Shown: one piece after another, positions 13,237 to 44,538 of the stretch | Numbering within the stretch: the first letter of the stretch is position 1 | How the letters are laid out: each line of letters begins with the position of its first letter | Assembly: GCA_949317995.1 (NCBI GenBank) | Contig: OX439040.1 | Coordinates: 52,713,186-52,777,185, forward strand | Direction: 5' to 3' | From: Acholoe squamosa | Lineage: Eukaryota; Annelida; Polychaeta; Phyllodocida; Polynoidae | Length of the DNA stretch: 64,000 nucleotides | Notes under the pieces: model-generated | The model's input: only the letters and a program-made list of their open reading frames with translations | Database searches by the model: none | Told to the model about the DNA's origin: nothing | Program-made: the position numbers and the translations under genes

Positions 13237-14030
13237 TGTCAACAGGTCGTTACATGTCATGAAGTGAGGTAACAGGAGTCCAGACAATTCAGTTGATGAT
13301 CCAGCTTTATTGTAAGATTGGCATGAGAGTAATCAATACATAATACAGTATGGTACTCGCCAGTCTTACCAAGCTATATCCTGGGGCCAAGGCACCTGAG
13401 TGTCGTAGGGTCTAGGTTGGAGAAGAATAAGATGATCAGATCTGAGCAGGATCCCTCCAGCTTATAAAGGGGGGAAAGGAGCTGCTCAGGGTGACTCATG
13501 CCTCCGTATTAGGGCATGTCCAGTGACTCAGTCTGGGGGTGAGCAGCTCGGCCCCAGTCCGGTTAGATCCAGTCTGATCCGGATTTGGGGAGGGGGGTGA
13601 GCTGCTCTCCAAGGTGAGTCAGTTGGACAGGTGGGCCTGGATTGATTGATTGATTTGTGTTTTACAGCACTTTAGCGGCACTAAGTGGCTATCCCGTGCT
13701 TCACAGGTTGATAATCTAACAGAGGAATGTGTCAGTGCCCGCGCATATGTGCACCACACACATCCTGAGGGGATAGGAAAGAGGAGATATAGACCCTTTT
13801 AGGTGGGCTAGGGAAGCCTGAGGTGGGCCTGGAGGTAGTGTATGAGTCATGCATTCCAGTGGGGGTTCCCACTGGGAGAGGGAGGGGGTGAGTGAGTCAC
13901 TCTGGAGTGGATGAGTCACTCAGCCCGGTAGGCTAAAAATAGGTAACCTTGGGTTCTACAGGGGAAAGCTTGGTCAGCTTGGTTAGAGTATGGCGTTAAT
14001 AATTATAATACACAGAATAGTCCCTTGACA
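13237..14030 (-). repeat. Element A 3' LTR (left copy), split by a SINE
   Basis: This is the counterpart of the right LTR at 29062-29678, nearly identical outside the SINE and small indels. Without the SINE and its 13-bp duplication it is ~602 bp. Just outside it, minus-strand reading gives GTGGGGATA directly before the LTR (forward 14031-14041), a plausible polypurine tract. Confidence 0.92.
13642..13820 (-). mobile_element. SINE with (AATC)n tail, inserted in the element A LTR
   Basis: The 179-bp insert is absent from the other LTR and is flanked by the 13-bp direct repeat AGGTGGGCCTGGA (13629-13641 and 13821-13833), the signature of target-primed reverse transcription. Read on -, it ends in AATCAATCAATC. 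A second copy at 60497-60676 shares the interior (GGAATGTGTCAGTG...GCGCATATGTGCACCACACAC, ATAGACCCTTTTA), so the unit is a real family. No tRNA-like head is obvious. Confidence 0.85.
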
Positions 14031-14411
14031 TATCCCCACATTCCCACTCGTCTCTGCACGAGGTTAAAGGGGAGAATAATTATAAGGAAGGGGAGGACAC
14101 ATCAAGTTCATTGACATATTCTGATCTTGACATGAAACAAGGAGCTGGTACAATTCGTAGAGGGTTGAAAACAAGTTTTCTGAGGTTTTATTTGTGTAGC
14201 AGCTGCTGGGTAACTTAATTGCAGTCTGTGTACTGGTAGAAAGGTGGATTAGATGCTTTTGGATAACAACTGGTATTTTGTTCTAAAACTAAGTGAGTAA
14301 AAGTTGGCATCCTCAGCAGGTGAGGCAAACTTGGTACAAAACTTTCTAAAAAATGCAGCGACAGATGTGAGGCAATAAAAGGGCTTGACTGGTCTGGTCT
14401 GTCGACAATAT

Positions 14412-14659
14412 TGTAGGGGTTCGTTCCCCCGTCGGGTGCGCAGAGCCTTCAGAGGGACTGTTCACTTGGTTGTGTCACTCCCCTATGTATACCATACCGA
14501 TCCAGGGTAGTTGGAAGGTGGAAATGTCAGTGGGGCCGTGTTGGTGACAGCGTATGTCAGGCCAGGGGATGTAGCTCAGTGGTAGAGCGCTCGACTTGCA
14601 AGCGAGAGACCCGGGTTCGAATCCCGGTGTCTCCAGAGACGTTTTCACTGACCACTACA
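14412..14659 (+). repeat. Left LTR of the tRNA-bearing TRIM
   Basis: 248 bp with the short inverted termini TGTAG and CTACA. It differs from the right LTR at GTGCGCAG/GTGCCCAG and GACAGCGT/GACAGGGT only. The tRNA-Ala gene occupies its last third, ending 24 bp before the LTR edge. Confidence 0.9.
14565..14635 (+). tRNA. tRNA-Ala (anticodon TGC), in left TRIM LTR
   Basis: A 71-nt cloverleaf: 7-bp acceptor stem starting GGGGATG, D arm GCTC-AGTGGTA-GAGC, anticodon loop CTTGCAA with anticodon TGC at 14597-14599, and T arm CCGGG-TTCGAAT-CCCGG, then discriminator A. Acceptor pair 3 is G-U, the classical alanine identity element. The box A word TAGCTCAGTGG and box B word GGTTCGAATCC are intact, and TTTT at 14641-14644 would stop Pol III. 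CCA is not encoded. One oddity is an A-G mismatch at the loop end of the anticodon stem. Confidence 0.92.
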
Positions 14660-14660
14660 G

Positions 14661-14672
14661 TGGTGGAGACAC
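14661..14672 (+). promoter_or_regulatory. Primer-binding site of the TRIM, matching its own tRNA-Ala
   Basis: TGGTGGAGACAC lies one base after the LTR end. It is the exact complement of the last 12 nt of mature tRNA-Ala(UGC) as encoded in this LTR, including the post-transcriptional CCA. Since CCA is not in the DNA next to the tRNA gene, the TGG part cannot be a simple inverted copy of the gene. Pairing can extend two more positions with one G-U. Confidence 0.85.
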
Positions 14673-14856
14673 TGAGTGGTCCTGCCTCACATGGGGGACC
14701 TTTAGAGAGCTCGGTACCTGGGCCGGTATGGTATAGACAAGCGCTTCAACTTGCTAGTGCTGAGGGACTTGGAAACAGATGGGCTGTGTGTGACTCAGTA
14801 CTGGTACCGTTCAGACTGGACTGGAGGACCGGTTCTGGCGGGATACGGTTGAAGCT

Positions 14857-14868
14857 GGTTGGGAGGAG
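14857..14868 (+). promoter_or_regulatory. Polypurine tract of the TRIM
   Basis: GGTTGGGAGGAG directly precedes the TG of the right LTR; the last eight bases are all purines. This is where plus-strand synthesis would start. Confidence 0.7.
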
Positions 14869-15116
14869 TGTAGGGGTTCGTTCCCCCGTCGGGTGCCCAG
14901 AGCCTTCAGAGGGACTGTTCACTTGGTTGTGTCACTCCCCTATGTATACCATACCGATCCAGGGTAGTTGGAAGGTGGAAATGTCAGTGGGGCCGTGTTG
15001 GTGACAGGGTATGTCAGGCCAGGGGATGTAGCTCAGTGGTAGAGCGCTCGACTTGCAAGCGAGAGACCCGGGTTCGAATCCCGGTGTCTCCAGAGACGTT
15101 TTCACTGACCACTACA
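14869..15116 (+). repeat. Right LTR of the tRNA-bearing TRIM
   Basis: 248-bp copy of the left LTR, ending CTACA immediately before the ATAT duplication. Beyond CTACA the two copies stop matching, which fixes the LTR edge. Confidence 0.9.
15022..15092 (+). tRNA. tRNA-Ala (anticodon TGC), in right TRIM LTR
   Basis: Identical over all 71 nt to the gene at 14565-14635, with anticodon TGC at 15054-15056 and the same T4 terminator just downstream (15098-15101). It is the duplicate produced by LTR replication. Confidence 0.92.
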
Positions 15117-15120
15117 ATAT

Positions 15121-16624
15121 GCTTAAAAAGAATACAGTGCTTGCTCTGCAAGTTATGTGAGTTGCCTGAGGCTTATACAAAAATAGATCAGTCAGGCAGC
15201 AGTGACACTCTCTGCTACATGCTGCCTTGGGTAATCATGGCAGCACCAGCAGTTACAACCAGTCAGTTATAAGTTAAGGAAACATGAAAATGTACACATC
15301 GTCTTGATATATAGTGAGGTAAGGGCCTAAAAATGACCCTGCAGGCAACAGTGATATTCGCTGCTTATGTATTGCCTTGGGTATATTGCCTTTGACAAGG
15401 AAATTTTTATTGCAGGGTCTGCACCATGTGGGTGCTGGTGGGCTATGGCAAATACCACTGCCGCGATTTCCGGGGGTCGCAAGATGGTCCTGCCGGGGGG
15501 TTAAGTGGCCCTTGCTCCATGTGGGCTTGAAGATGAGATTTTCAAGGTATGTGTCAGGGTTGAGGATCTTTCGCGTTTGTGTGCTATGTGGAGGAAGGTG
15601 AAAGTAATGAAAGAGTCTGAGATTGTGAATTTGAATTTCCAGTTTGCGGTCCATTTGAGGTTCGGGGGCGCTAAGACAATTTTGAATTATGTTTCAGAAA
15701 AGGCGGTCTGTAAGGAAGGAAACAGGAGATGATTGAGGTGGAGCGGTAGACGAGGAAAGGAAAAAGGACTTGTCCAGAAGGTGGCGGGGGCCTAATGCGA
15801 CACTGTGATTGATTGTGATTCTCTACCTGTGATTGACTTTGTGATTGTGGCATCGACAGCCAGGAGGGCTTGGATCAAACTGTGATAACTGTGCAATATA
15901 CTTGATTTCTTGTGATTTTATGTGATTGATGCTCTGCCAGAAGGCCTGATCAGATGATGATGCTTTAGTCAATAATATAGAAAGTCCACCACCAGTTTAG
16001 AGTTATGTTATAAATTTTGGGGCTTGTAAATTGGGCGCCGGTGTTGTCTGAATTAGATTGGTATGGTGATCGGGGAGTGGTAAGTCGGGGTATGTTGCAA
16101 GTCTATTGTCAATATAAACACATGCTTATGTTGTTGTATTGATATGTGCACCATGTGCGAACGTCGGATTGTGTATTGATGACGCCAATCCCACGTTATA
16201 ACGTGCGAAAAACTGACGTTTGGAGCTGTATTGGGGACACTCAGGTGATGTCATGATGCCGCGTTTGGCGCGAAAAATGCCCAGACGCAGCGTCAGCACT
16301 TGACGTCTGCGGCCCGCTATACAACGTCCAAAATTGGGTCAGTGGGGCTGCGATTGTATAGGTATGTGGCGGTATGTTTGTTTTAGTTGGGTTTGTTTTT
16401 CAGCTGATAATGGCTGATAAGGTATGGTGGGGTCGGTGTTTACTTGGGGAATGCAGTCAGGATGGCTCGGCATAGCCGGGCAGTAACGTATAATAGTGGG
16501 CATCCCCACATGAGGTATGAGGTATAACAGTGGGGGCTATCCGGTGGGATCCTCCAGGTGGGTTTGTGGTAAACAACCTATATACGAGGGTATCCCCACA
16601 TAATTCCTGATCATGGGCTAAATT
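15121..16624. other. Element A 3' region; no gene seen
   Basis: Between the TRIM and the membrane ORF I see no supportable gene. A 126-codon open frame on - (15274-15654) has no recognisable domain. The words CATCCCCACAT (16501-16511) and TATCCCCACAT (16591-16601) repeat the polypurine-tract-like word at the edge of the left LTR. Confidence 0.4.
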
Positions 16625-17464
16625 CTAAATTGACCTACCATCGGCTGGGAGGAATTTGGCTACTTCATCAGGCTTGGAGGGGTCGAACAGGAATTTGTCC
16701 TTTAAGGGCTGGAGTTCCTTTGATCTGTAGCCTCTCAGTTCTACCAAACTTCTGGATTGATGGGACGATCTCAGTGGCGAGAGGGGACTCCTGGGGCATT
16801 GGATTTCGGATAACTCCGGTAGATTAGTAGAGTCCGAGATGTCTAGAGCTGGTAACAACTGGAAGTCCGGTTGGTCCTTGGATTTAATGACTAGGGTCAT
16901 GACATGGGGGCTTGAGTTTAGGATCCTGTAAATTGGGATCCTCCAGAAAAGGGGGCAGCGGGGGTATCTTTCCAGCTGCACCACCTTGAGCTGTCTGGCA
17001 ATGATGAAACTAACCTTAGCCTTCCAGTGCAGATCTAGGTGGCGGCCAAAGGGGCTAGTTAGGCGGGGTCTGGAGATCTTGGGGGCCTTAATGAAGGGGG
17101 GCCACAAGTTGGGTCCAAACATCATGGTTCCCACCACGAATTCAAAGCATCGGTCCCCAGAATGAATCCTGAGGACGAACTGAGGTAGGCCACTGGAGTC
17201 GTCCTGCCTGCCGTACAGCCAGTGTCTCCAGCATCTTGCGACGAGGAGGCGTAGCAGGTATAACACCACCAAGACCATGGCCATGGACCACATGGCATCA
17301 TACCTGTTGGTTTGCTGGATGAAATCAAACCCTTCGTCCCGAGGGATCCTTGTAGGCGGCGAGGGCCAGTTGTTGTTGGCCTCATTTATCAGTGCCTTGA
17401 GGTTCTTCCAAGCTGCTGCGTCTGCCATGGTCGAGGGCTTAAGCATAGAGTGGACAGTGACCAA
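16625..17464 (-). CDS. Element A membrane ORF (single TM plus cytoplasmic-type domain)
   Basis: 279 codons, starting 27 bp after the envelope stop. Residues 1-57 are polar, residues ~58-76 form a hydrophobic segment (MWSMAMVLVVLYLLRLLVA), and a basic stretch (RCWRHWLYGR) follows, predicting one membrane pass with the C-terminus inside. The next ~110 residues look beta-rich (FVLRIHSG, FEFVVGTMMFG, AKVSFIIARQ), then comes a Ser/Pro-rich tail. I do not recognise the family. Element B carries an ORF of the same plan beside its envelope (43826-44527). It may be an envelope partner or an assembly protein; that is inference. Confidence 0.7.
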   Translation of the reverse strand: MVTVHSMLKPSTMADAAAWKNLKALINEANNNWPSPPTRIPRDEGFDFIQQTNRYDAMWSMAMVLVVLYLLRLLVARCWRHWLYGRQDDSSGLPQFVLRIHSGDRCFEFVVGTMMFGPNLWPPFIKAPKISRPRLTSPFGRHLDLHWKAKVSFIIARQLKVVQLERYPRCPLFWRIPIYRILNSSPHVMTLVIKSKDQPDFQLLPALDISDSTNLPELSEIQCPRSPLSPLRSSHQSRSLVELRGYRSKELQPLKDKFLFDPSKPDEVAKFLPADGRSI

Positions 17465-17491
17465 CTGGGCAAGGCGTGTGATGCGCCTGTA

Positions 17492-19315
17492 TTAGTGACA
17501 CATGATTACACAACAGAAGATGACCAAAAGCGGGGTCAACAGGTGCAACCAGGGCGAGTACTCCAGGTGGTGACCGAGGTGCACTAGTGAACTTGCTGAC
17601 AACAGGGAAGCTTCATCCGACAGGCCTTCAGCTGCATTCCTGAGGGTGAGTACCTCCTTAATTAAAGGTACTATTTTCTGATTGTGTAGGAATTTTAAAC
17701 GCTGTAAGTTAGGTAGTTCCAGGGGCCGGGGTGTGGTTGTCATGGAGACGCCTGACACATTGGTTGGAGGAGATCCAAAGTGTTGCCATAGGGGGAGGTT
17801 GACGGGGCTCATGGCTAGGGGGTCTAGGGTGATGTTTTGTGTGCAAGATATATTTGAATTTATCATGATCATACCAGCATTATTAATAGAACATAGACAT
17901 GGAACTTTTATCACTGAATAAGCTGCATTTTTTATTGTAATTTGTCCAGCACTGCGACATTGTAGGTGGGATGGTGAGATGCTGGTAATCAAAAGGTATG
18001 TGTCCCTAGCTATGGGTTTAATTAGATTTGGCATGGGTGCAGCCATGTGTGCAGCAAAACTGCAGGTGTGGTGGACTGCATCAGGTAGATCTAAGAGTAG
18101 GGATAGGGCGCAAGTGGGGTGGAGTGGTGATAGCAGGGGTAGGGGTAGGTTGCAGCTTACAAAGGAGTCTTGTGTACACATGTCCATGTCAGCCTGCTGC
18201 AGCTCTATGTAGTGGGCGTGGCTGTTGGACATGGCTATGTAGGGGGGTAGGGGTTGTGCTAGTGTATAGCCTGTGGCGCCTGGGTCTGATGTGTCGAAAG
18301 GGACTAGGAAGGTTTCGGTTCTAAAAATAGAATAGGTGTTATCCCCTAGGCCTATTGGTATTGGTATGGTTATAAGTAAGGTAGAGTTATCGCTCCAGTG
18401 GGCGCTCACTCTTCTCTTGTAATAAAAACCTACCGGTACCTGTAGGACGCTGATACCTTGGTGGGCACTACTGAGGGCGCTGGAGAGATTGTTTAGACCT
18501 AGCCTTAGGGTATCATGGGGAATTAGTGTGGGTGGTAGCTCGCCCTCCATCAAACAATTGATGGCTTTTAGAAGGGTATCTAAGTCATCTTGGAGGTCAA
18601 TGAGTGACTCAATTTGTGCATTTGCTGCAGAAAACAGCATAGAGTAGAAGTTGTCCTGTCTGGCTTGGCTTTCCAAGTTCAGAATAATACTTGAAAAATT
18701 GGAGTTTAAATTTTGAAGTTTGTGGGCCAGGAGGGACAGGGCATCATCAGTGTCATTCTGAAATTCTGATAAGGTATTTAAAGATTTATAATTGTACTCT
18801 GAAATGTTTAGCAGAAAATGGGTGGCCAGCTCTACTACATGCATTTTGGTGGCTAGCTTTCTGTCTATTTCTGTTATATCTGAATTTAGAAGATCAATTT
18901 CGGGTTGGGTTCCTAGACCTATAGTGGCCCTGAGAATGTCGCCAATGACTTGCCCAGGGGCATTTCTGGTGACACAAGTTTTGGGGTTTGAAATTAGATC
19001 AAAAAGGAGGTCTAGGGAATTTTGGGATTCATCAAAAAGGGTGTTGATCACCAGGTGGAAGTTATTAGCTGTGTGGGTGATGTAGGGCGAGGCATTGGGT
19101 CTGACCAGGGGGCATACTCTGTCAGGTTTCTGGAGGGTGGGGGTGAGGGATACATTTAGGCTGAAAACCAGGGGGTAGTCCATGAAATTTGACAGCAGGG
19201 GCTGGGGCATGGGTGTGAATAGGACTCCGTAATTGGGTCTGAAGATATTTCCTGTGTGTGGCTCCTGATGTTGTGATCCACTGGTGGCAGCAATGAGGAT
19301 GAGGGTGATTGCCAT
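17492..19315 (-). CDS. env: Element A envelope glycoprotein, F-like
   Basis: 607 codons. It begins with a hydrophobic signal-like segment and ends with a hydrophobic anchor (LLTPLLVIFCCVIMCH) almost at the stop. Around residue 125 is a small-residue hydrophobic stretch (GQVIGDILRATIGLGT) followed by long heptad-like helices, then a Cys-containing C-terminal part (DMCTQDSF, CALSLLLDLPD). This order resembles the envelope proteins of insect errantiviruses, which are related to baculovirus F fusion proteins. No clear R-x-K/R-R furin site precedes the fusion-peptide-like stretch, unlike element B. Many N-x-S/T sites fit a glycoprotein. The frame is open throughout. The homology is judged by pattern only. 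Confidence 0.75.
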   Translation of the reverse strand: MAITLILIAATSGSQHQEPHTGNIFRPNYGVLFTPMPQPLLSNFMDYPLVFSLNVSLTPTLQKPDRVCPLVRPNASPYITHTANNFHLVINTLFDESQNSLDLLFDLISNPKTCVTRNAPGQVIGDILRATIGLGTQPEIDLLNSDITEIDRKLATKMHVVELATHFLLNISEYNYKSLNTLSEFQNDTDDALSLLAHKLQNLNSNFSSIILNLESQARQDNFYSMLFSAANAQIESLIDLQDDLDTLLKAINCLMEGELPPTLIPHDTLRLGLNNLSSALSSAHQGISVLQVPVGFYYKRRVSAHWSDNSTLLITIPIPIGLGDNTYSIFRTETFLVPFDTSDPGATGYTLAQPLPPYIAMSNSHAHYIELQQADMDMCTQDSFVSCNLPLPLLSPLHPTCALSLLLDLPDAVHHTCSFAAHMAAPMPNLIKPIARDTYLLITSISPSHLQCRSAGQITIKNAAYSVIKVPCLCSINNAGMIMINSNISCTQNITLDPLAMSPVNLPLWQHFGSPPTNVSGVSMTTTPRPLELPNLQRLKFLHNQKIVPLIKEVLTLRNAAEGLSDEASLLSASSLVHLGHHLEYSPWLHLLTPLLVIFCCVIMCH

Positions 19316-19584
19316 AGGGACTGCATCCCTAGAACAAGATAGAAAGGGAGAATGTTTTAGTAGTATGAAAAATCTTACACCTTGGGGTCTGTGTGGGTGG
19401 GTTTTGGTACACCTAGCTGGGTGTGATTATACGTGTGGGAGTGGTGGGGGGGTTGCTTGGCTTTGGGTGTGAGGTAAGGGTTTTTGGTGTGACAGGTGAC
19501 CTATGGTGTTAGTAGGTTCTAAGCTAGTTGGGGGTTTTAAATTGTGAAAATTGGTAGCTTACCCTGATTGGTTTATTCAAAAAA

Positions 19585-19986
19585 TCAGCTCTGGTGGCTG
19601 GTGCTGGGGGAATCTAGGTTGCACATTGGGCACGAGTGGGTTTCAAAAATGGCTTGTTGGTAGATGAGCTCTACAGTATTTCTGATGACCATAAGTCTGC
19701 CTATTCCAGAGAAATATCTGGGAAGGTCTTTAAGGGGCTTATCAGAAGCCAGAAATGTGCGCACACATAACAGCGCTATATAAGCTGCTGCCTTGGTAGA
19801 GAAAGTGCTCCAATCTGGAGTAGTGGGATTGTCACATACCACGTAGTACATCATCCTTTTGATGAAGGTGGCGAACGTTGGGTCGTTTAGGGGCAGTTCT
19901 TCCAACACTGCCGGGTCATTCAGGTAGAAACTCTTATCCCCCTCAGTCATAGTGATAACCAAATTTTGGTGCTCCATAATAAGCAA
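19585..19986 (-). CDS. Small ORF between integrase and envelope of element A
   Basis: 133 codons, no TM segment, mixed helical composition, with a CPMC pair near the C-terminus. It lies between the integrase and envelope genes in the same orientation, where complex retroviruses place accessory genes. I do not recognise it. It could also be the spliced-in 5' part of another product. Confidence 0.45.
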   Translation of the reverse strand: MLIMEHQNLVITMTEGDKSFYLNDPAVLEELPLNDPTFATFIKRMMYYVVCDNPTTPDWSTFSTKAAAYIALLCVRTFLASDKPLKDLPRYFSGIGRLMVIRNTVELIYQQAIFETHSCPMCNLDSPSTSHQS

Positions 19987-21410
19987 CCTAGTCCCTACAA
20001 TATCTCTTCTGCCATTTGGTATTCCAATGGGTCCCAGGAGGTCATGAATTGTCCAATCATGAGCATTTTTCCTGCAGAGAAGTTTTTTATTTTGAGTAAG
20101 CTACTTTTCGAATAGGCTGATAAAACAAACAGGGGGGTAACACAGAGGCATGTAAGAATCAACTCAGGTGTGGATGTGAAGAGGTATAAGTAACTTCAAA
20201 CTTTTAGAGGTATCTGGGCTCACATTGCCATTGGTTAATAGAGGTACCTGGGTATCATGACAACAAATTTGCCATTGACAATACATTAACGACTGATAGT
20301 CTAATACTAGAGTGGGCACATAGGACAGGCCTACCTGGGCTTGTTGCATGCTATGGATGCCATGGTGGAATCCCAGTCCAGGTACTTGTTCACTTGGTAC
20401 AGTGATGTGGTTGGATGAGGAAATATTGTGAGAGTGGATAAGGTTTGGGTGGGCTAAGGCTTATAAACCCTTCCGTGAGGGTGGCTATTTTTCACTTCCT
20501 GGTCTCCCTATGTTGGTATGTCTTGCCCTATAAGGCGATGGCCAAATTCTATTGGGTGTATGCAGTTTAGGCAGCGCTGCCCTCTATGCAAATTTTGGTA
20601 CCTATGCCTAGGTATGGGAGGTTTATAATTGGGACCTTGGGGTCAGTTGTATGAGATAAGGAGGGTTGGGTAAGGTCAACATTATGTTTGTAGAAACCGC
20701 TGACCAGGGAGGCATGATGTGTGGAAACATGCATGAGTAGGTGAGCTGTCTTTAATTGACAGGTCATAAATTTTGTATTCTACCTGCATCACCACTCTCG
20801 TGCTAAACAGAGGTACAAACATGGATTGGGCATGGGGAACACAGACACCTACAATAGGCGTGTCACTGGTAAATAGGAGCCCTGAAAAGCTAACAAGCCG
20901 GGGTATGCATGCTTTCTAAAATAAAAACATGTACCAGAGGATACACTGCTGCCTTGGGCAATGTATGTGGCTACCAAACCACACTGAGTGAGTATTATAT
21001 GTGTGTGCTGCCCTTGAATGGTTTAGCAGTGCGGCTTGAGTTTGTCTTTGAAGTCACAGCTTCAGTGATGATAATTGAGAAAGGTTTGTTTCTTGATGAA
21101 AGGAAAACAACAAAATAATAAAATATATATATATAAAAAAAAAAAAGGATATACAAAAAAAAAGTACGTAGATGGGGATTACGGTATAAGTGTTAGTACT
21201 TTGGAAAATATTTGGATACTGGCGTCTTCTTTAGAGAGGCCGCTGTATGGGTGTTATCGCCAGTACAAACTGTAGGTCAGGGTGTCACATGAGGTTGGGT
21301 GTGTGATGTTGAGCCTCTGAAGATAACAGAGGTGAGTCGCGTGGCAGGCTGTGTGCCGTGGGTCGTGTGGGGTGGGGGGGGGGGGGGTGCTAGAATTCTT
21401 CATGGAAACT
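19987..21410. other. Element A spacer; no gene seen
   Basis: No supportable gene between the small ORF and the integrase C-terminus. It holds A-rich simple sequence (21110-21165) and a G run (21371-21387). Confidence 0.4.
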
Positions 21411-23396
21411 TTAGGGAACTTTAGCTGTTTTCTTTTTCTTTGCCTTTTTCAGTGGAGATGGGGCAAAGGTAACAACGCCTTTCTTGGCGGGTCGACCTCT
21501 CTTCTTTTTGGGAGGAGGGGTCGGTGTGCTGGAGTCAGGCATTGTACTTGAGTCGGGGTCAAAGAGGGTCGACATAGGGCCGGTCTGGAGCCTCTTTATT
21601 ATGGCTTTGGTGCTGGCCCTTGTGTTTGGTCGTCTCAGTCTTGATACATGTACAGCTTTGCTAAAAACTTTTCCATCCTGCAGTCTTTTTATTTTTGCAG
21701 TTACTGATGAGGTCATTTTGACTATGATGTAGGGGCCAGAGTAGGTGGGTCGCAGCTTTTCGGTGGTGTGTTTAACCAGAAGGTTAGGGATGTGTAGGTA
21801 TACCAATTGACCAGTGTTGAAGGTGCATGTCTCTGCTGAGGCATCATGTTTGGCTTTCATCTTTTTGTGAGCCATAACCATGTTCTCTGCTGCCTTCATT
21901 TGGATGTCATCCCTGAGATTTAACAGGTGGGTTGCTATATCCTCCTTCTGTTTAATATCACTAGTTGAAATGATTAGCGCCAGTGCGGCCTCTGTGGGTA
22001 AGTGTGTTTGCTTACCAAAGATCAAGAGGTTGGGTGAGTAACCCAGGGCTCTAGAGACTGTGTTATTCATGCTGAAAATTACAGCCTGGAGGAAGGTAGA
22101 CCAATTCTTCTGTGATTTGGATACAAAGGCTCTGAGGGATGATTCTATTGTCTGGTGTTGTCTTTCACAGAGACCTTGGCTACGGCTCCAATGTGCACTC
22201 CCTGTGACATGTTTGATGCCAAATTTATTGCAGAATAATGCAAAAAATTTTGAAGTGTATTGTCTGGCATTGTCAGTGTTTAGGACTGAGGGAGTTCAGA
22301 GATGGATACAGATTACTCTTTGGAAAAAACCAAGGGCTACATCTGCAGCCGTGTTTTCTTCAGTGCACCATGCCGTGACATGTCTAGTGGCATGGTCTGT
22401 TACCACGTGTATATGGTGGGAACCATCCACAGCCTTATTGAAAGGGCCTATGGTGTCCATGGTGACATGGGAGTAAGCTGTTAGCACTGGGTCACGGAGT
22501 GTCATTGGTGATTTTAGGTGTTTTGGTCTCTTTTTGGTTGTGAGACATGTGTGGCAGGTGCCACAGAAATCATACACCTGCTTGAACATTGAACGCCAGT
22601 AGTATCTTGATCTGACTGCTGCATATGTTTTAACTGAACCCAAATGTCCACCTAGCGGGGAACAGTGTGTAGATTCAATTATAGACTCTGCCCATTTTTC
22701 AGGGATCATTATTTGAAGGGTGGGGTCTAGAGATTTGCCCAACACTGTATTAGTGATCCTGAAAAGGACCTCATCTAGTATGATGAATTGGTCGTGATTG
22801 CTCAAAATTTGAGTTGTCAAACCTGGGTCGATTGGCAATTTTCCAGATTCAATGTAATCTAGCATTGATGAGGCGAAAAGGTCTTCTTTTTGTGCCTTAA
22901 TTAAGGTTTCTCTAGAAGGTGTGGCAGATGTGTGCTTGCAGAGTTTCACAATTGCCCTCTCAGCTATGGGTAGTGCCTTCTGTGAGAGCTTAGCTCTTTT
23001 GGCATTGGCTGCCCTGACTGATACCCTTGGTGACCTGGATTTGTGGGGTCGACCTCTCGACCTAGAACCAGCCGGCTTGACCTTTGTGGGTCGGCTCTGT
23101 TTGTTTACAGTGGTTCTGGTCCGTGATTGGGTGGGGGCTGGGGGTGTGTCTTCCTGGGAGTTTTGTGACTGCGCCCTGGTTAAGACACACAGCTCTGATT
23201 GCGGTGTGAGTGAAGCTATGTAATTTCTTTCAGAGCTATTTTTCTTTGCAATGACACCTTTTGGTGGTTTGCCTGTGCTTCCCCAGATTTTGCCTCCTTT
23301 TAGGATTGATCTTGGAGGTCCCATCTGTATTGGGTGATTGGGTACTGGCTCATTGGATCTGAAAACCTTGGTCATGGTTATGTCAGAGAAAGACAA
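21411..23396 (-). pseudogene. pol (int): Element A integrase with a frameshift and AT-hook motifs
   Basis: Two frames make up this gene: 23396-22296 and a downstream frame that includes 22070-21411. The first has the HHCC zinc module (CSPLGGHLGS...CGTCHTC) and the first catalytic Asp (VTMDTIGPF). The second Asp and the catalytic Glu are still readable in the region 22296-22070 but in the other frame, so one frameshift lies near 22,295. The C-terminal part has a GPY/F-type motif (YSGPYIIVKM). Integrase inserts the cDNA into chromosomal DNA. Two AT-hook-like words are unusual: SRSRGRPHKS in the N-terminal extension and KKRGRPAKKG in the tail. Confidence 0.88.
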
Positions 23397-23422
23397 CTTC
23401 TTGGGGGGAGTATAATTTTTCC

Positions 23423-25090
23423 CTATGACCTGATGGGAATTGGGTCATCAGAGCTTGGTGGGTAGGTTCTCCTGGAGAGGAAATCCGCCACGAGATTGGC
23501 TCTGTCCTGCAGGTGTTTTACTTCAAAGTCGTAAGACTTGACTGTGTCCACCCACCTGGCTAATCTCCCATTTGTGATGTTTTCTTTTTTATTGAAAAGG
23601 GAAACTAGGGCGGTGTGGTCGGAGTAGACCTTCAAGTGAGTTTCATCCACATAATGGTGGAACTTTTTTACTGCAAAGACTATGCCCAGTAGTTCTTTGT
23701 CTGTTATTCCATATCTGGTTTCCTGTGGGGTTAAATCTCTACCTGCGAATTCAATGGGTCTGTAGAAGCCATGGTCATCCACCTGTGTGATCACAGCTCC
23801 CAGGCTGTAATTACAGTCGGTGAAGATGACAAAAGGCTTGCTGTAGTCTGGAAATTTGAGTACAGCTTCAGTACAAATTGAGGTTTTGATTTTTTCAAAG
23901 GCTTTCTGGCAGTTTACTGTCCATTTAAAGGTGCTTTTGGTGGCCTCATATAGGGGCTTCATGATGTGAGCAAAACCTTTGATGAATCTTTTGTAAAACT
24001 GTGCCATGCCATTGAAACACCTAAGATCATGAATGTTCTTGGGTGAAGGAAAGGTTTTGACTGGCCAGATTTTGTCTGGGGAAGGCAACACACCATGTTG
24101 GTCCAGGGAGAAACCCAAGAAATCCATCCTGGTGGTGCCAAATTCACATTTCTCTGATTTTAATTTGATATTCCCTCTGATGAAAAGTTTGAGCACCTCG
24201 TCTAGGTCTTGCAGATGTCTTTCCCAAGTGGGGCTATAAATAGCCACGTCATCTACATATGCTACTGCATTTCTGTATTTACACTTCATGAGTAGCTGTT
24301 CCATGATGTTCATGAAGGAGAGACCTGAGGTTTTGAGTCCCATGGGAAGGACTTTGGCCATGTACCTGGTTCCATTGGCTGAAAAGGTTGTTATGGGCCT
24401 TGATTCTTCAGCCAGGGGAATTTGGTGGTAGGCGCTATAGACATCCAATTTTGAGAAATATTTGGCGCCTGTTCTGCCAATTTGCTGCATAAAGTCATCC
24501 GCTCTGGGGAAGGAGTATGAAAAAGATTTTAGGTTTTGGTTTACCCATCTATAGTCCACTACAATTCTCCACCCAGAGGCCACAGATCTGTCTCCCTGAG
24601 GTTTGGGTACCAAGAAGGCTGGTGAATTCCATTCACATGGTTTGGTACATTCCTCAATGATTCCCTGCTCTAAATGTTTTTTTAATAGCTCTTTTTGGAA
24701 AATTTCTTTATGGGGGGACATTCTATAAGATGGCCTGTTGCAGGGTTTGTGGTCGGGGATTAATTCCAACTTCACTTCATTTTCCACATTGGAGCCAATA
24801 GCGCTGTCATTAATCACAAAAGCTTGTTTATTCCCCTCCACGACCTTACGGATTTCTTCCTTTTGGCTGTGAGTGAGCTGCTCACAGATTTTATATTTCA
24901 AAGGTTCATCGCCCTTTGGGAGCTGCTCTAGGGGGTCTTCACAATTTATTGGGAAGAGCTCCTGGTCGGGGGTGACGTGGTTCAGTGAGTGATGACTGTG
25001 TAGGGGGCCAATTGGTATAGCCTTCTTGATGTTAAAAGGCTTGAATGCACCTAAAGTCATGTGCTTCTTTAAATGCAAAGGAAAATGCAA
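23423..25090 (-). CDS. pol (RT-RH): Element A reverse transcriptase-RNase H
   Basis: 555 codons, open throughout. RT motifs run in order: SPAFLVPKP, WRIVVDYRWVN, KYFSKLDVYSAYHQIP, LPMGL and the catalytic YVDD near residue 278. RNase H follows with FTDCNYSLGAV, TDKELLG and YSDHTALVSL, and the domain ends at ANLVADFLSR. The protease frame overlaps the first 59 bp in another frame, so a frame change joins protease to RT; whether it is programmed or decay is not clear. The domain order places it in Ty3/Gypsy. Confidence 0.93.
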   Translation of the reverse strand: MHFPLHLKKHMTLGAFKPFNIKKAIPIGPLHSHHSLNHVTPDQELFPINCEDPLEQLPKGDEPLKYKICEQLTHSQKEEIRKVVEGNKQAFVINDSAIGSNVENEVKLELIPDHKPCNRPSYRMSPHKEIFQKELLKKHLEQGIIEECTKPCEWNSPAFLVPKPQGDRSVASGWRIVVDYRWVNQNLKSFSYSFPRADDFMQQIGRTGAKYFSKLDVYSAYHQIPLAEESRPITTFSANGTRYMAKVLPMGLKTSGLSFMNIMEQLLMKCKYRNAVAYVDDVAIYSPTWERHLQDLDEVLKLFIRGNIKLKSEKCEFGTTRMDFLGFSLDQHGVLPSPDKIWPVKTFPSPKNIHDLRCFNGMAQFYKRFIKGFAHIMKPLYEATKSTFKWTVNCQKAFEKIKTSICTEAVLKFPDYSKPFVIFTDCNYSLGAVITQVDDHGFYRPIEFAGRDLTPQETRYGITDKELLGIVFAVKKFHHYVDETHLKVYSDHTALVSLFNKKENITNGRLARWVDTVKSYDFEVKHLQDRANLVADFLSRRTYPPSSDDPIPIRS

Positions 25091-25559
25091 AGTTTTTCGT
25101 TGTCTTGGGTTTTACCAAGGCATGTTTGATTAAAAATGGCAACCTTGTATAGACATTTTCAGTGATGCCTGTGAGTCTAGTCAATTTGCCTGGGCCAAGT
25201 ACCATGGCACTTAATGTGGTCTCAGGGTTAGAGGGAATTGTGAGGCTTCTAACTGGCCTTATTGGGCAGACTGATGGCAATTTTGGGCCAAAACTGAGTT
25301 TGGCTTTGTATTTGGTCATGAAGTTTACTCCAAGGATGAGGGGGTGGTTTAACTCAGGGACAACATGGAACCTTGTGATAAATTCCTGTCCCTCAATTAG
25401 AAAACTTATGTTTAAAGAGTGATTTACCTGTACTGAGGACCTGTCTGCTAGGAGGACTGTCATACGTGATCTCCTACCGTGTCTAAAGTTTGGGGTGTTA
25501 ACAACCTTGTCAGCCATTTTCTGACTGATAAAAGACAAGGATGCTCCAGAATCAACCAA
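25032..25559 (-). CDS. pol (pr): Element A aspartic protease
   Basis: 176 codons visible from an internal Met. The active-site motif VDSGAS is at residues 2-7, and the second half has HPLILGVNF, the ILG-type motif of retroviral-like proteases. The true N-terminus lies upstream in the 25.6-25.7-kb region, which is in frame with less certain coding. The enzyme would cleave Gag and Pol during maturation. Confidence 0.85.
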   Translation of the reverse strand: MVDSGASLSFISQKMADKVVNTPNFRHGRRSRMTVLLADRSSVQVNHSLNISFLIEGQEFITRFHVVPELNHPLILGVNFMTKYKAKLSFGPKLPSVCPIRPVRSLTIPSNPETTLSAMVLGPGKLTRLTGITENVYTRLPFLIKHALVKPKTTKNFAFSFAFKEAHDFRCIQAF

Positions 25560-28500
25560 AGCTCTATAGTGGTGGTCATTTATGTCAACAAAAACTGCAC
25601 CTCTAGTTAACTCGGTATCAATGTGAGAGACCTTACCTTGCTGCCCCTACTTATCTGACTTGATTCTCAGTTGGAGGCGTGCCACTCTGCTGCTGCTATC
25701 CTCATAACAGTCCTCACTGTCTGAAGAGCTGTCCTCTAAGTTTAGCTTGCCGTTGATATTTGGCTGCTGGAGAGAGTTGACTTCTGCATCACTTTGAATA
25801 TCAGGTGACTGTTGGCTGGCGGGGGTCGTTCCAGATTTCTAGTCCATTTTGGTGGGGGCGGGGTTACAGGGTGCTGTGCGACCTTCCCCTGAAACCTATT
25901 CTTCATCGTCCTGGCTTTCCTCATTATCAATGAAATCTTCATCACCATCATTGTGATCAGGATTATCCTCATCAATGTTGTTGAGATCGGCATCATTGTC
26001 TGATTCAGTGGGCTCATTACCCTTACTGCCCTTGGAGTATCTGCCGGGTGTTGAGTCCCTGTTTCTTTTCTTGTAGTATGAGGAGCCATCAGGGGGGGTG
26101 GAGGTTTTCTTGAAGGAAACCTGTTTATTATCAGATGGGGCTGTGGCCACAGTGATGATGATTTTATTTTCATCTGAGCTTGGGCTCTTGTGGGAGCTCA
26201 AGGACCTTTTGAATTGGGGTGGCTGGGCTTTTCCGTTCCCAGGCGAGTCTTGGGACCTAGATCTGCCCTTGTATTTCCTGAAGTTGGATTCAGATTGATT
26301 GTTGAAACCACTTCTGTATTTGGCATCATACTGCTTGTTGTAGTTGCCACTTGGAAGCCTGTCCTCCTTTTTGTTGTCCTGATAATGGGCTTCTTTTCTG
26401 GACCTGCCATTGTTTTTATTGTTGTTAAAAATGGCACAGAGGTCTGCCTGCTAGGTAGAGGCGAGGGAGGTTTTGTTGGCTTCAAGACTGAGCTCTTGTT
26501 TGAGTGCTAGGCGCTCTGCCTCCACTATGGATCTGGGTGCCTCGGGGAGGATTATTGTTTTAATCTCGGGTTTTAGACCATTAATCAGATAATCCACCTG
26601 CACAGATTCTTCTAGGCTGCTATTGGCTAGGAGGAAAGTCATGTCGGCCAGGTATTGCTCCACAGTTTCATTTGGCTGTTGTTTTCTATTCCTGTAACCT
26701 TTAATGATGGTTGCAGGGTCAGGGGTGCCAAAACGCTGTAGAAAGGCAGCGTATACAGCCTCATTATCATACATGATGGGCTTCTCAAATATATTAGGGA
26801 AAAACCACTGGGCCGCTCTCCCCTTGAGGAAGGTGTACAAGCATGAGGCATGAAGATGGGGATGGCGGGGGTACATGTTCCTGATCCAGAATTTGAATTC
26901 CATGATGAATTTGGATGCAGATCTGTACTCAGTTGGCTTATCAAAGGTCTCAGGCTTATTGAAAGAGCTGAGCTGGGCTGAGGAAAGTCTATCATTTTTT
27001 TCAGCGTCATTTGTCCCATGCTATTAGTGAAGTGGGACTGCCCTAGGTTTGGGATCAAGGGTGTAGAGTGGGGGTATACCTGGCAATAGGCCGTATGGTG
27101 TGCACCCGTGCTTTGGGAGTGCAAGGTTTGCATAGGTATGGGCATGTTACCAGGGGTGTGTCCTTGTGCTGGAGTGTATATGTCTCCTATCACTGAGCCT
27201 AGGGCGCTGGGTCTAGCATCTGCCTGGGCGGGAGCTGGTGCTGCCATCTGGTGGTCTGCGGACAAACCAGGAATTCCGCCTTGGGTCAGCTGGTTGGAAG
27301 TGGGCGTGGCATGTGTTGAGCCTGTTGGAGTGTTGCTGTGGAAAGCACTAGGAGGGCTTAACCTGATGTTTGTACCTGGTTGTGGGTTGGAGGCTGCAGG
27401 GGGTGCACGCGGGGTCTGAGTAGTGTGAATCAGCCCCGTGCTGACCGGTGTTGGATGTGTGATGGGGACATAAGCAGGTGTTCTGTTGTCATAGGCTGTA
27501 TAAATGTCCCTTCTGACATCGTCCATATTTCTGTTTATTCTCTCAGAAATGTCTGCAGCCAATGCTTTGGATCTTCTTAAAACATCAGCATTGTCCTCAG
27601 CAGCTCTCCTTTGTGTGTGTATCATATCACGCTCCATTTGAGCTCTCCAGGTGTCCATGTTATCCAGTCTGTCATTGACTCTGGATAGTTGGCTGGTGTG
27701 CTCCTGACCTACCCTTTTGATTTCAGCAGACAGGAGATTAATTTGGCCAGTCAGTAGGTTGGATAAGGCATCACTGACTGCCTGAGTACATTCTCTCACC
27801 AGATTTCTGGCCAGGTCATCTTGGTCATATCTGGGTGGGGGCGCTGAAGCCATGCTGCTGTCCGTCCTGTGCCTGTTAAGGTGAGGGAAAGAGATTTCAG
27901 AATCTTCTCCAGAGGTGATGCTGTCTTCTGATGTAAATTCAGGGGCGGTTTGTCTTCTGCTGAAGATATGGGAGGTGGCCCTTAAGTTACCTCCAGCTGT
28001 TGCTGATTCTACACTTCCTAGCAGTCTATAATAAGGAGGTGTTTGTCTCCTATGAGGTGAACTAGACTGTGCTCTTCTTCTTCTGGGGCTAGGTAAGGGT
28101 GTATAGTCAGATGTAGAGGTTCCAGATTCCAAGCTTGGGGAGAGGGTGTTTGGTGGTGGTGGGGTCGCCTCAGGAGTGGAGGTACTTAAGTATGATCTGA
28201 AAGGATCCCTAAAGCTTGGGGCGTCGGGCCACTGTTCCTCCAATACTCTATTGACACGATGTAAGAAGGCTGAGGGGCTCTCACCACACTGTGTATTCTC
28301 AGGGTTGCAGGTTTGTGCCTGCTGAGCTCTGTTGTTTCTATTTGAGCCTGCTGATCTCCACCTGGCAATAGCTGATCTTATTCTATGTCTCCAGAGATCA
28401 AAGGTGGGTGGTGTATTAGTAGTAGAATCTTGGACAATGAGATTATCCCAAGTGAGCTCAGAGGGGTCTGGGTGTATAAAACCTGCTTGACTGGGGGTGG

Positions 28501-29008
28501 GGTGTGTACCGGTACTGGGCTGCTGAGTGGGAACTGGTATGCTCTGTAAGGCAGCCTGTAGTTGAGGAGACCTGGGCTCCAAATGTGAGTCTAAATCCAG
28601 GTGACTAGGAGAGTTAATTACAGGTGTTGACTGTTTTTCACTTGGTAGACCAGCAAGTCTCAGTACTGGGGACTCAGCGTCTGAGAAACCAGGTAAAGTC
28701 AGATTGAGGCCTGGTGCTTGTGATGTGCTGGGTGTGCTGGTCTGTGTACCGGTATTATTATCAATTATGGTTGATGAGAAAGTTTTGTCACTACTCACAG
28801 GTGTTGGTTTAGGTGTTAATAATGAGGCTGGAAGGATAGGATCCAACAGAAAGGCGTCGGGTGACGAGTCAGCTGTTCGAGTAGGCTGGTGTGCGTCTGG
28901 GGCTGCTGCTGCTGCTTCTGCTTCTGCTGGTTGGGGCGTGTCTAGCCCCGGGGGTGTAATGGCGCGTTGTGAAGCAAACTCTTTGGGTGTCGTCTCACTT
29001 TGATTCAT
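25560..29008 (-). pseudogene. gag: Element A gag with a homopolymer frameshift
   Basis: The start Met at 29008 opens a long Pro/Ser/Thr-rich N-terminal half (to ~27,020), probably disordered, with a coiled-coil-like stretch near 27,560-27,860. Near 27,000 an A7 run changes the frame, and the capsid-type domain then reads from ~26,990 to 26451: WIRNMYPR, FLKGRAAQWFF, ETVEQYLADMTFLL, VDYLINGLKPEIKTI. These are typical of the Retrotrans_gag family. The last part (26,450-25,740) is basic and Asn/Ser-rich, then acidic, in broken frames. I see no CCHC knuckle. Gag builds the particle. Confidence 0.85.
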
Positions 29009-29042
29009 GGCTCATGAGAGGTGAAAACAATGGGATTGTTAC

Positions 29043-29060
29043 AGTTGGAGTTTTCCACCA
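29043..29060 (-). promoter_or_regulatory. Element A primer-binding site
   Basis: One base inside the 5' LTR edge, minus-strand reading gives TGGTGGAAAACTCCAACT. The TGG start and the position are those of a tRNA primer-binding site. The matching tRNA is not identified; it is not the tRNA-Ala of the TRIM, which agrees over only the first seven bases. Confidence 0.65.
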
Positions 29061-29061
29061 T

Positions 29062-29678
29062 TGTCAACAGGTCGTTACATGTCATGAAGTGAGGTAACAG
29101 GAGTCCAGACAATTCAGTTGATGATCCAGCTTTATTGTAAGATTGGCATGAGAGTAATCAATACGGTATACAGTATGGTACTCGCCAGTCTGACCAAGCT
29201 ATATCCTGGGGCCAAGGCACCTGAGTGTCGTAGGGTCTAGGTTGGAGAAGAATAAGATGATCTGAGCAGGATCCCTCCAGCTTATAAAGGGGGGAAATGA
29301 GCTGCTCAGGGTGACTCATGCCTCCGTATTAGGGCATGTCCAGTGACTCAGTCTGGGGGTGAGCAGCTCGGCCCCAGTCCGGTTAGATCCAGTCTGATCT
29401 GGATTTGGGGGGGGGGTGAGCTGCTCTCCAAGGTGAGTCAGTGGGACAGGTGGGCCTGGAGGTAGTGTATGAGTCATGCATTCCAGTGGGGGTTCACAGG
29501 TGGAGCCTGGGGGTTCCCACTGGGAGAGGGAGGGGGTGAGTGAGTCACTCTGGAGTGGATGAGTCACTCAGCCCGGTAGGCTAAAAATAGGTAACCTTGG
29601 GTTCTACAGGGGAAAGCTTGGTCAGCTTGGTTAGAGTATGGCGTTAATAATTATAATACACAGAATAGTCCCTTGACA
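29062..29678 (-). repeat. Element A 5' LTR (right copy)
   Basis: 617 bp from TGTCAACAGG to CCCTTGACA, matching 13237-14030 apart from the SINE and small indels. It includes a 21-bp insertion-type difference (GTTCACAGGTGGAGCCTGGG region near 29,491-29,512). Confidence 0.92.
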
Positions 29679-30667: not shown

Positions 30668-31206
30668 AGAAAGTTTAGACATTTCAAATCATTATTGAAT
30701 TGGAGATTGGAAACTAACCTCATCTTTGGACTTGGTCATGAGGATTGAAACTTGTAAAGGTTTGTAATTGAGTGCCTTTCCATGTGGGCATAGGAATTTA
30801 GACACAAAGCTCTACCCTTGATGCTAGCACTAGATTATTCCCCAAGAATATGGTAACATCGCGAGTGGAGATGGACTGGAGGAGAAATTTAAGCTACAAG
30901 TGGAGATTGGAGTGAGGTGAAAACATAACTGGTGGAAATCCCGAGTTCGATCATTGTATTATAAGCTACCCCATTTCGGAAGGCGAGTTATAACCCCATT
31001 ATAAAGGCTCACTCCATTACAAGGGTGTACTATACTTCAGGACTAACCCCCTCTAAATTATCAAGAGAACACAACTTCCCCTCCAGTCTCCTCCTCAGAA
31101 CTATAACAAGGCGGCTCCCCACAAAGTAAAGGATAGAAACCCCACCGCCCATCAACCCTCCGCCTGCCATAGCTCAGGTGGTGGAGAACAATGCCTGTGT
31201 CTTGTT

Positions 31207-34200
31207 ATGAATCAGACACCGTTCCCGGAACCTCAGGGTACTACACCTCTGGGGAGGACGCCTGCAGGAAGTGATATATTATCAAGTGGCTCTGCTGGTG
31301 CCAATGCGAGCGATCAGGATAGCTATAGCAAGGAGGAGGAACAAAATTTTATTGAAAACCATCATCAGGACCATATTAATAATAGCACAGCTAATAGTGT
31401 GAGCAATGTTCAAGTTGAGCGAAGTGAGATAAGTAGTAGAGACCAGGGAAGACCTGAACAAGCTATAGGAGCTATAGTCCTTCCTAGGAGCGAAGGTGTT
31501 AATAATAGCATATATCAGGAAAGGGGTACCTCGGGAAATCGGGGAGCAAAATCGGGCAGACTTGATCAACCTGTTCGATTGAGCACCCGATCGAGAGGAC
31601 CAGCAGATCCTATACAGTTGGGACCCAGAGACACTCAGATAGCAGTAACGGCCTTAGCCTGGAGATCAGGGGAACTGCCAACTATAAAAGAACCCGCCCT
31701 GGAGGATGAGATGCTGACTCCCCCTCACGGTGCTGAACGAGTCAAAGGAGTCATCACCCTGATGAGGAGTTGTTGAAAACTAGGGCTGAAGCACGAAGAC
31801 AACTCCTCACATCCACCCCGTTATCGACGGAGCGGGGCCAGCGCGAACCGGCGGATTCAACCGGGACTGGCGGCGCTGCTATCCAGAAGCAGGCCTTGGA
31901 TTCTAGAGAGAGTAGCAATATTCCCTCTGGAGCCTTGGGGACCCACCAAGAGACATCATTGGGAAGGCTTCATATAGAAACAGAAAGTCAGGTGGCGTCT
32001 TATATTGGTGTTGCTTCTGGAGATTCCAGTAATAGAAAGAGAGGTAAGGCTGAGTCACCCTTGGGTACTCAGCACCGGAGCCATCATTTAGGGGAACAAA
32101 CATCAAGTAATTTAGAACAACTACCAAGTAATTTAGAAGAAATTTTGGCTTCTAACGAAGTTGAAAATACCATAGTCTCTCTTGATAATCGGAATAATAC
32201 TCAGATCACTGCCGAGAATAAAAACTCTCAACATCAAGTAAACCAAGTGATCCCGGCAGGAAGGCAAAGCAATTTGAGACCAAAAGTTGGAAACCTTGAA
32301 GGGAGTTATTTGGAGTCAATTCAAGGAACTACAGGTAGTGTTGAGCAGTATCCTGTATCTGATAGTGGTGAGTCTACTGATTATTTAGATATAGTGAATA
32401 CCAAGTCAACAGAAGAGAAAAGTGGAGAAAATCAGAGTCGTGGCACTCACCGTTATACACCATTACCATCAGGGATAGGCTCTACCGAAACACCTGTATG
32501 GGATTATAGTGACTTGTCGGCACGACCTTTGGCGGCCCAATGGGCACATACTAGTGTTAACACAAGACCTCATTGGGAACAAGCAGGACGAGAGTTTCCA
32601 GGGGCGCGATTCGAGGATACATCTGGAAAATCAGGATCACCTGGAGAAACCAGGGACACATTCTGTAGGCTTTCGAGTGACACTTCCAGAGAGGAGGATC
32701 CCTCTGACACTTTGGATGACCTAACTATCGTATCTCCAAAGGAGAACTCCCGAATAGCTCCAAAATCAGTGGCCGCAGCTACCGTGGCAGACAATGGAGA
32801 GTTTTCTGAAGTTTTCGACGACGTGGAGATAGTGTATGGTGGGACCTCTAGTGAATCTCCAGACAGGAGAGAAGTCCCTATCAGAATGATGACAGGTAGA
32901 AAGCCCCGCGTCGCGTCTGATGGTCATTTGTTTTTATTCTCTGATAGAGGGATCAATCTGATAGACCTTAATTCTACATCTGGAGACACGGCGGGACAGG
33001 TGAGTAGTGAGAGTCGAGGTGAGTCGCGAGGAGGATCAGGGACCTGCACGTACCTGGGATCCTCGGAAGGCAACAGAACTACCTCACGGCCGAGTCCAGA
33101 AATTATTAGTACCGTTTCGGCTGAGACTAGTGGATCGGGAGAGGAAGGAATCTCTGAAACTGACAATACCCTCCACCCCACCTCTGTGGGAGGATGTTTT
33201 AACGGTCATATTACTTTTGATGTCAGCGGCGACACCTGGGCCTCGTTGGATCGAACTGTTGGCGTTATTGAGGAGATTACTGAACATTCTAATCGCAGGC
33301 AGGAGGAGTTAAGTGGGTTTAGAACCGCATTGCGAGAAGCCACGGAGGCTTTGTTGCAGCAAATAAGAGTATCACATGCCTTGTATGGGCAAGAAGTCAG
33401 ACGTCAGGGAAGTCTAGTGGGAACTCGTTTTGCTAGCGAGAGAGAGGAAAGCTGCCTCATAGAATCAGAGGAGACCGGAGGAAATTCAGGAGCAGTCACT
33501 TCACCTGTGGAGGAGGTAGCACAAGGAAGAGAGTCGCTGAATGAAGGGAAAACTCCAATTCAGGATTTGGGGTTAAAAAGAGCTTATTCAGACTTTCTTT
33601 TCTCAGCGAGTTCCTATAGGGCCGACAGGAGAAAGGTACGTATCAGCTGATGAGGCACAATCCGAGAGGTGTGAGGAGGCAATTGTGAGGAATATTGAAG
33701 CCTCTATTGACGTGATACCAACACGAATCGACGATCGCAGCGAAGCCCCGAACGGATCGCAGACTGTAGTTAAGGTCCTCCAACCACAAGGTTTGGGCAA
33801 TATTGTTGCTGAGTGTGGAGTGGAGCCAGATTCTGTGACCCCTCAGAACATTAAATCACCACCCTGCTATGCACATGCGGTGACCGGACGTACACCTGTG
33901 AAACAGCAAATTGCCTTAGAGGCTACTACCAGGATTAAAGCTGTTTCCATGAATGGTCAGGCGAACGTACCATATGTATCAGCAGTGGTGGGCTCACCAA
34001 GCCAAGGCTTCCTGTTCCGCGATGGGATAAAACAAGCATTTTGTACCTGATTAGGTGAATTGGTTTTGATGGAAAGGAACCTTCCTTTCCAGAGGAGCCA
34101 AGAGGATGAGGTCGATTCTGAATTCAGTAAAGTACTAGAGAATTATGTCATGCAGGGAGTCCCTGGAAATTATAACCCAGGGGGATACGGCATGTCAAGA

Positions 34201-42435: not shown

Positions 42436-42477
42436 AAACAGGAGGAGGACCTCCAACTTACATGTGGAAGCGGTGTT

Positions 42478-44527: not shown

Positions 44528-44538
44528 AATATAGCAAC

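Follow-up and report, generated by a model that had tools for sequence, protein, structure and literature searches.

The accepted view is that LTR retroelements take host tRNAs as primers and seldom rely on their own RNA for priming. In self-priming LTR elements of the Tf1 type, the primer is the 5′ end of the element's own mRNA; these elements also supply their own primer, but encode no separate tRNA.

Helenus elements are TRIMs with tRNA-derived sequence in their LTRs and include animal members (Kojima 2024, PMC10886601). In the sections of that paper drawn on here, they are 311–1263 bp in length, have a primer-binding site (PBS) and a polypurine tract (PPT), and in animals are flanked by 4-bp target-site duplications (TSDs). 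Several families can occur in one genome, and tandem arrays are noted in one case, zebrafish LTR-11_DR. Gypsy elements are proposed as mobilisers of animal Helenus. Some families are predicted to encode tRNAs without isotype disagreement (Thr in bivalves, His or Thr in fungi); fungal Helenus-4_PTrit has 133 predicted tRNA-Ala-TGC genes, yet is counted as unable to encode functional tRNA (PMC10886601). The LTRs of two other TRIMs, Cassandra of plants and Ajax of nemerteans, also contain a Pol III-type gene, but that gene is 5S rRNA-derived (PMC10886601). PbTRIM of ants is an animal TRIM with 4-bp TSDs, ATAT being commonest, but its PBS matches Drosophila tRNA-Leu, and the parts of the source used here mention no LTR tRNA (PMC3532108). 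Ta-TRIM of taeniid tapeworms is an animal TRIM whose PBS, as described in the parts of its source used, fits a host tRNA-Leu gene family (PMC4558846).

The window is a 64,000-nucleotide stretch of the genome of the annelid Acholoe squamosa. COX1 on contig C63 of the assembly is 95% identical over 98% to a Phyllodocida entry in UniRef, followed by Branchipolynoe at 91% among the best 120 of 7,999 matches, as would be expected of a polynoid-like scale worm. At 14412–15116 it contains a TRIM-type LTR element of 705 bp with a tRNA-Ala(UGC) gene in each LTR. By the definition in Kojima 2024 (layout, tRNA-derived LTR sequence, 4-bp TSD; PMC10886601), it is a Helenus element. The author of an earlier note on this DNA knew of no animal element whose LTR carries an intact tRNA gene. 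Animal elements of this kind are known, however: tRNA-bearing TRIMs were named Helenus in 2024 and include animals (PMC10886601). Two differences from Helenus as described were found. The six animal phyla named in the sections used do not include Annelida, and complementarity between LTR tRNA and PBS was reported there as absent (PMC10886601), whereas here the two match, over 14 nt in 54 of 71 elements, and covary. The layout with a tRNA in the LTR was already known, and the match between the PBS and the element's own tRNA appears to be the new part. This match was overlooked in the earlier note and indicates a role for the tRNA as primer, not mere cargo. Judged from sequence, the element is a Helenus-layout TRIM whose LTR tRNA gene would supply its own reverse-transcription primer, with a probability of about three in four. 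Among openly licensed PMC papers, searched by title and abstract opening, no report of a self-encoded tRNA primer was found.

Layout of the window element

Features are listed in Table 1. The two LTRs with two mismatches, the PBS, the purine tract and the ATAT duplication described earlier were all re-found. ARAGORN, Rfam and direct reading agree with the earlier description of a complete tRNA-Ala(UGC) with A box, B box, G3-U70 pair and T4 terminator in each LTR. The element is short, with two LTRs, a PBS and a PPT, and a polyprotein would not fit in it. The PBS begins 1 nt downstream of the 5′ LTR end.

The tRNAs were typed Ala(tgc) by ARAGORN, one per LTR, and lie 457 bp apart. Their Rfam RF00005 score of 68.5 bits compares with a cut-off of 29 bits. 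CCA is not encoded; A73 of the 5′ LTR tRNA is followed by GAGACG and then TTTT. One flaw was read from the sequence, an A31/G39 mismatch in the anticodon stem. A ViennaRNA fold of the isolated tRNA, in which modifications lie outside the model, did not produce the cloverleaf, and its energy was unremarkable (z −1.33); the tRNA assignment follows ARAGORN and Rfam. Rfam at its gathering threshold detected nothing beyond the two tRNAs in the whole window, and no 5S rRNA-derived LTR.

Table 1. Features of the TRIM at window positions 14412–15116 and its flanking duplications
Feature	Position	Strand	Remarks
5′ target-site duplication ATAT	14408–14411	.	same ATAT at 15117–15120
5′ LTR, 248 bp, TGTAG...CTACA	14412–14659	+	direct repeat of 14869–15116, 2 mismatches
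tRNA-Ala(UGC) gene, 5′ LTR	14565–14635	+	ARAGORN; Rfam RF00005, 68.5 bits
A box of 5′ LTR tRNA	14572–14582	+	read from sequence
B box of 5′ LTR tRNA	14614–14624	+	read from sequence
T4 Pol III terminator, 5′ LTR	14642–14645	+	6 nt past A73, between tRNA and PBS
Internal region, 209 bp	14660–14868	+	between LTRs
PBS TGGTGGAGACAC(TG)	14661–14674	+	12 nt complementary to GTGTCTCCA-CCA, 3′ end of own LTR tRNA
Polypurine tract GGGAGGAG	14861–14868	+	abuts 3′ LTR
3′ LTR, 248 bp	14869–15116	+	direct repeat of 5′ LTR
tRNA-Ala(UGC) gene, 3′ LTR	15022–15092	+	ARAGORN, Rfam; identical to 5′ LTR copy
T4 terminator of 3′ LTR tRNA	15099–15102	+	LTR position 231–234, as in 5′ LTR
3′ target-site duplication ATAT	15117–15120	.	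same as 14408–14411

Copies, target sites and conservation of the LTR tRNA

The 1.48-Gb assembly (63 contigs) was searched for other copies, as the earlier note had proposed. The element gave at least 51 matches. At least 46 cover query positions 1–703 or 1–705 at 98–100%; these come from 40 of 3,436 first-look candidates scored and include the window copy and overlapping array rows that share LTRs. The family-1 set consists of 40 loci, the copy in the window and 39 others, picked as best matches to that copy. All 87 of its LTRs carry the tRNA, which ARAGORN typed as Ala-tgc in 86 and Val-tac in one. Exact 4-bp TSDs flank 28 of the 40 loci, whereas shuffled pairing yields 1.2 on average and never more than 5. 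Recurrence of the layout with 4-bp TSDs excludes chance. The LTR pairs of the 36 two-LTR loci differ at 0–7 sites. Beyond this set, 24 resolved relatives are 623–990 bp in total length, with exact 4-bp TSDs in 17 and a PPT of exactly GGGAGGAG in 19.

Empty sites, also proposed earlier as a check, were sought by joining the two 150-nt flanks of the window element and running them against the genome. The query gave at least 43 matches, and at least 18 span it whole at 86–98% without insertion, with 40 of 142 candidates scored; four of the 18 sit in one array on C14. The window locus itself was recovered as two pieces. The unoccupied sites are paralogous copies of the surrounding repeat, that is, of the interior of a Gypsy-like element.

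Some loci are more complex. L029, L011 and L042 are arrays of 3–6 LTRs in which neighbours share LTRs head to tail. At L016, L017, L029, L030 and L034 the duplications are imprecise, with G as the last base of the left copy where the right copy has T or C (e.g., TTAG/TTAT). This looks as though a terminal G had escaped processing and replaced the final base of the duplication. Pattern scans of IMG/VR and GTDB gave nothing useful; a single 18-mer match from a pattern scan, without a tRNA, was taken as chance.

Across the 87 family-1 LTRs, no diversity is seen in the T4 terminator or in the 3′ strand of the acceptor stem together with A73. Mean diversity is 0.0128 upstream of the tRNA, 0.0185 in the whole tRNA and 0.0145 downstream, and by these means the complete tRNA is no better conserved than other LTR parts. 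TTTT also follows the tRNA region in all 30 loci read outside family 1. ARAGORN typed 27 of these 30 as Ser (16), Cys (9), Leu (1) and Ala (1), and the acceptor is Ala-like (GGGGA.. with TCTCCA) in most of them. The T4 lies between tRNA and PBS, so a Pol III product would be the tRNA, not genomic RNA.

Match between the PBS and the LTR tRNA

Reverse-complemented, the PBS TGGTGGAGACAC reads GTGTCTCCA followed by CCA, which is how the tRNA encoded in the LTRs of this element would end once mature. Pairing covers 12 nt in the window copy; most other family-1 junctions read have C at PBS position 13 and pair over 14 nt. A second family was found in locus L015, as a head-to-head neighbour. Its LTR tRNA ends in GTTTCTCCA, and its PBS, TGGTGGAGAAACCG, is again the complement of its own tRNA. 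The LTR/PBS junction patterns CTACAHTGGTGGAGANNCCG and CTACAGTGGTGGAGANNCCG occur at 1,193 and 491 genome sites, with no reversed-pattern control matches for either.

Pairing was read in 71 elements: the window copy, the 39 other family-1 loci, the second family of L015, and 30 junctions that are the first listed of the 1,193, all on C1. The pattern for these 30 fixed TGGTGGAGA and CCG, left PBS positions 10–11 free and placed no constraint on the tRNA side. The PBS pairs with the element's own tRNA plus CCA over 14 nt in 54 elements, 12–13 nt in 12, and 1–11 nt in five (L025, L045, L090 and L105 over 1–10 nt; L086 over 11 nt).

Position 67 of the tRNA and position 10 of the PBS are complementary in 70 of 71 elements (G/C 41, T/A 28, A/T 1), which is to be read as three states (at least two changes) together with the host-end differences and not as 71 independent events, because the elements share ancestry and similarity guided the choice of family-1 loci. 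In 5,000 permutations, the number of complementary cases averaged 35.7 and never exceeded 52. The sole mismatch (G/A) is in L090, a rearranged element. The third PBS state occurs at 11 sites genome-wide, and the tRNA has A67 in all 11: L086, five intact GTATCTCCA ends, four C4-cluster copies with TATCTGCA and one with TATCTCAA. The acceptor pair 6–67 is for the most part preserved, its two partners changing together: it is T6:G67 in 39 elements, A6:T67 in 25 and T6:A67 in one, is mismatched in two and was not read in four. Exceptions are L129 and L130, where the PBS has changed and the tRNA has not changed to match, and L141, where a tRNA end GTGTCTCCA stands next to a PBS TGGTGGAGAAAC.

Host tRNA-Ala genes were sought by a loop pattern that gave 212 matches and no control matches; 30 loci were fetched and 32 genes were readable. 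The host ends are GGTTCTCCA for AGC (one decayed to GGTTCTCAA), GCATCTCCA for TGC and CGC, and in one case GCGTCTCCA. None of the 32 readable genes has a GTGTCTCCA or GTTTCTCCA end. Across the 71 elements, the longest run of PBS pairing with three of these host tRNA-Ala ends is 10 nt. Nine sites with another T-arm context were hand-picked among the first 100 of 354; eight lie in element LTRs and one has a host-type GCATCTCCA end. The family-1 end TTCRANTCCCGGTGTCTCCA, not followed by G, occurs at 20 sites genome-wide, and by eye none is a free-standing gene; the test is blind to a host gene with G directly after this end and covers TTCRANTCCCGGTGTCTCCA only, not GTTTCTCCA. Element LTRs, some of them decayed (L132 and L135 the most), account for 18 of the 20 sites; the other two are insertions derived from the element. 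A long tandem array of host tRNA-Ala(AGC) genes is located at G000:C12:51451328-51476883, with spacings of about 290–805 bp among the matches listed.

The usual PBS pairing of 14 nt is short of 18. In 46 junctions, the PBS extends the tRNA complement to at least 17 nt. The search pattern fixed these 17 letters except for free position 10, thereby excluding host ends, and left the sequence after 17 nt unconstrained; 20 of the 46 were read. Seven end after 17–20 nt (L152, L154, L155, L163, L166, L167 and L169), and in the other 13 an element-type tRNA complement is present in full or for the greater part. In classical retroviruses, plus-strand strong-stop synthesis copies 18 nt of tRNA and halts before m1A58. 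L169 has exactly 18 nt of tRNA complement followed by element interior, and L154 and L155 are compatible with 18 nt, a base or two being shared. Several of the 13 long cases look like copies of one event (L158, L162 and L165; L151 and L159), and L160 and L161 are neighbours.

L133, L139 and L151–L170 are LTR/inverted-LTR products joined via TGG and tRNA complement. L139 (TSD ATTG) contains 47 nt of family-1 tRNA complement, including the partner of CCA, and L133 (TSD ATAG) has a family-2 LTR joined to family-1 tRNA complement. The cases with a full tRNA, 11 of the 13 plus L133, were compared by eye, and all 12 continue beyond the 5′ end of the tRNA into LTR-type sequence in inverted orientation. 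This run-on marks them as inverted-LTR products, formed through annealing of the PBS to an LTR tRNA rather than through plain read-through of a mature tRNA. The joined sequences suggest that PBS and LTR tRNA anneal during copying; alone they are no proof of a mature tRNA as primer.

Proposed priming, alternatives and surrounding sequence

In the proposed mechanism, the A and B boxes would drive Pol III transcription of the LTR tRNA, which would end at the adjacent T4. The transcript would be trimmed and then CCA-tailed, and its 3′ end would pair with about 14 nt of PBS in the element RNA, for which the complementarity and covariation are seen. The tRNA primer would be packaged, and copying and insertion would be carried out by the reverse transcriptase and integrase of another LTR element, probably Gypsy-type because the TSD is 4 bp. 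A helper with this PBS was not found; a pattern with other ACA ends beside the PBS gave 11 sites. Retention of the tRNA as a primer would account for the persistence of the acceptor end, the CCA-side sequence and the terminator alongside a drifting anticodon. A primer role fits the retained acceptor and T4 and the drifting anticodons, and a decoding role is at odds with the other families. Probably, this is also the first known LTR retroelement lineage to carry its primer tRNA gene, with tRNA and PBS co-evolving as a private pair escaped from host tRNA-Ala, the anticodon freed from decoding, and families that may cross-prime (L133).

Priming by a host tRNA-Ala, with the LTR tRNA of the same isotype by coincidence and acting only as a promoter, is unlikely. 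Nine to ten contiguous PBS nucleotides pair with host tRNA-Ala ends, short PBSs can function, and such a host tRNA might prime. Host primers were also inferred for Helenus in the sections of Kojima 2024 used here (PMC10886601). However, the host mismatches sit at PBS positions 10–11, where the element tRNA matches, and LTR tRNA and PBS vary in step over three states. The complementarity could instead reflect a hairpin in RNA or DNA that spans the end of the LTR, either with a structural role or left over from template switching, and not a primer site. The tRNA 3′ strand and PBS are an inverted repeat about 25 nt apart, template switching between them could homogenise both without a primer role, and the run-on of all 12 full-tRNA extended PBSs into inverted LTR-type sequence makes both stretches seem to anneal in copying. 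A hairpin is nevertheless quite improbable, as TGG lies 1 nt past the LTR, where a PBS is expected, and pairs with the CCA absent from the gene, and L169 has copied exactly 18 nt of tRNA before element sequence resumes.

A similarly small chance is given to the reading that the tRNA does no more than promote Pol III transcription of the genomic RNA, which is the TRIMp3 proposal for Helenus in the sections of Kojima 2024 used here (PMC10886601). A and B boxes are there, but the tRNA is separated from the PBS by the T4, invariant in 87 LTRs, at which Pol III transcription begun in the 5′ LTR should end, short of the PBS. A promoter alone also leaves the PBS match unexplained, although promoter and primer roles could co-exist. 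Dispersal of working tRNA genes that serve translation is very unlikely. Anticodon UGC and G3-U70 are retained in family 1 (86 of 87 LTRs Ala-tgc), but family 1 has the A31/G39 mismatch, and the related loci, mostly typed Ser or Cys but with an Ala-type acceptor, would miscode if used. A local tandem duplication of a tRNA locus, considered in the earlier note and suggested by two identical tRNA genes 457 bp apart, is ruled out by dispersed copies, TSDs and unoccupied sites.

If a self-supplied primer is the true reading, an element-encoded primer tRNA would be a third priming solution beside host tRNA and self-priming. It could explain the good acceptor end with incoherent anticodon, and with it the isotype disagreement described in the sections of Kojima 2024 used here (PMC10886601). 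It would also be a warning that many annotated tRNA genes may be primers. The three covarying states within one genome open primer specificity to direct test.

The TRIM is located inside a Gypsy-like element of about 16.4 kb (13237–29678, minus strand), close to that element's 3′ LTR. The larger element has LTRs at about 13237–14030 and 29062–29678, a TSD of ATAA and RT/RNase H by Pfam; ORFs at 16625–19426 have no Pfam match. Its PBS starts TGGTGGAAAACTCC, so its primer differs from that of the TRIM. A stretch at 13642–13820 is present in just one of its LTRs and is possibly a further dispersed repeat; 13713–13818 is 89% like 60571–60675. Another Gypsy-like RT/RNase H, a dUTPase domain and a baculovirus-F-like protein are found in one region at 31057–46401. 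An rve-type integrase core at 51521–52462 and its neighbouring ORFs are possibly, as a guess, a Polinton-like element.
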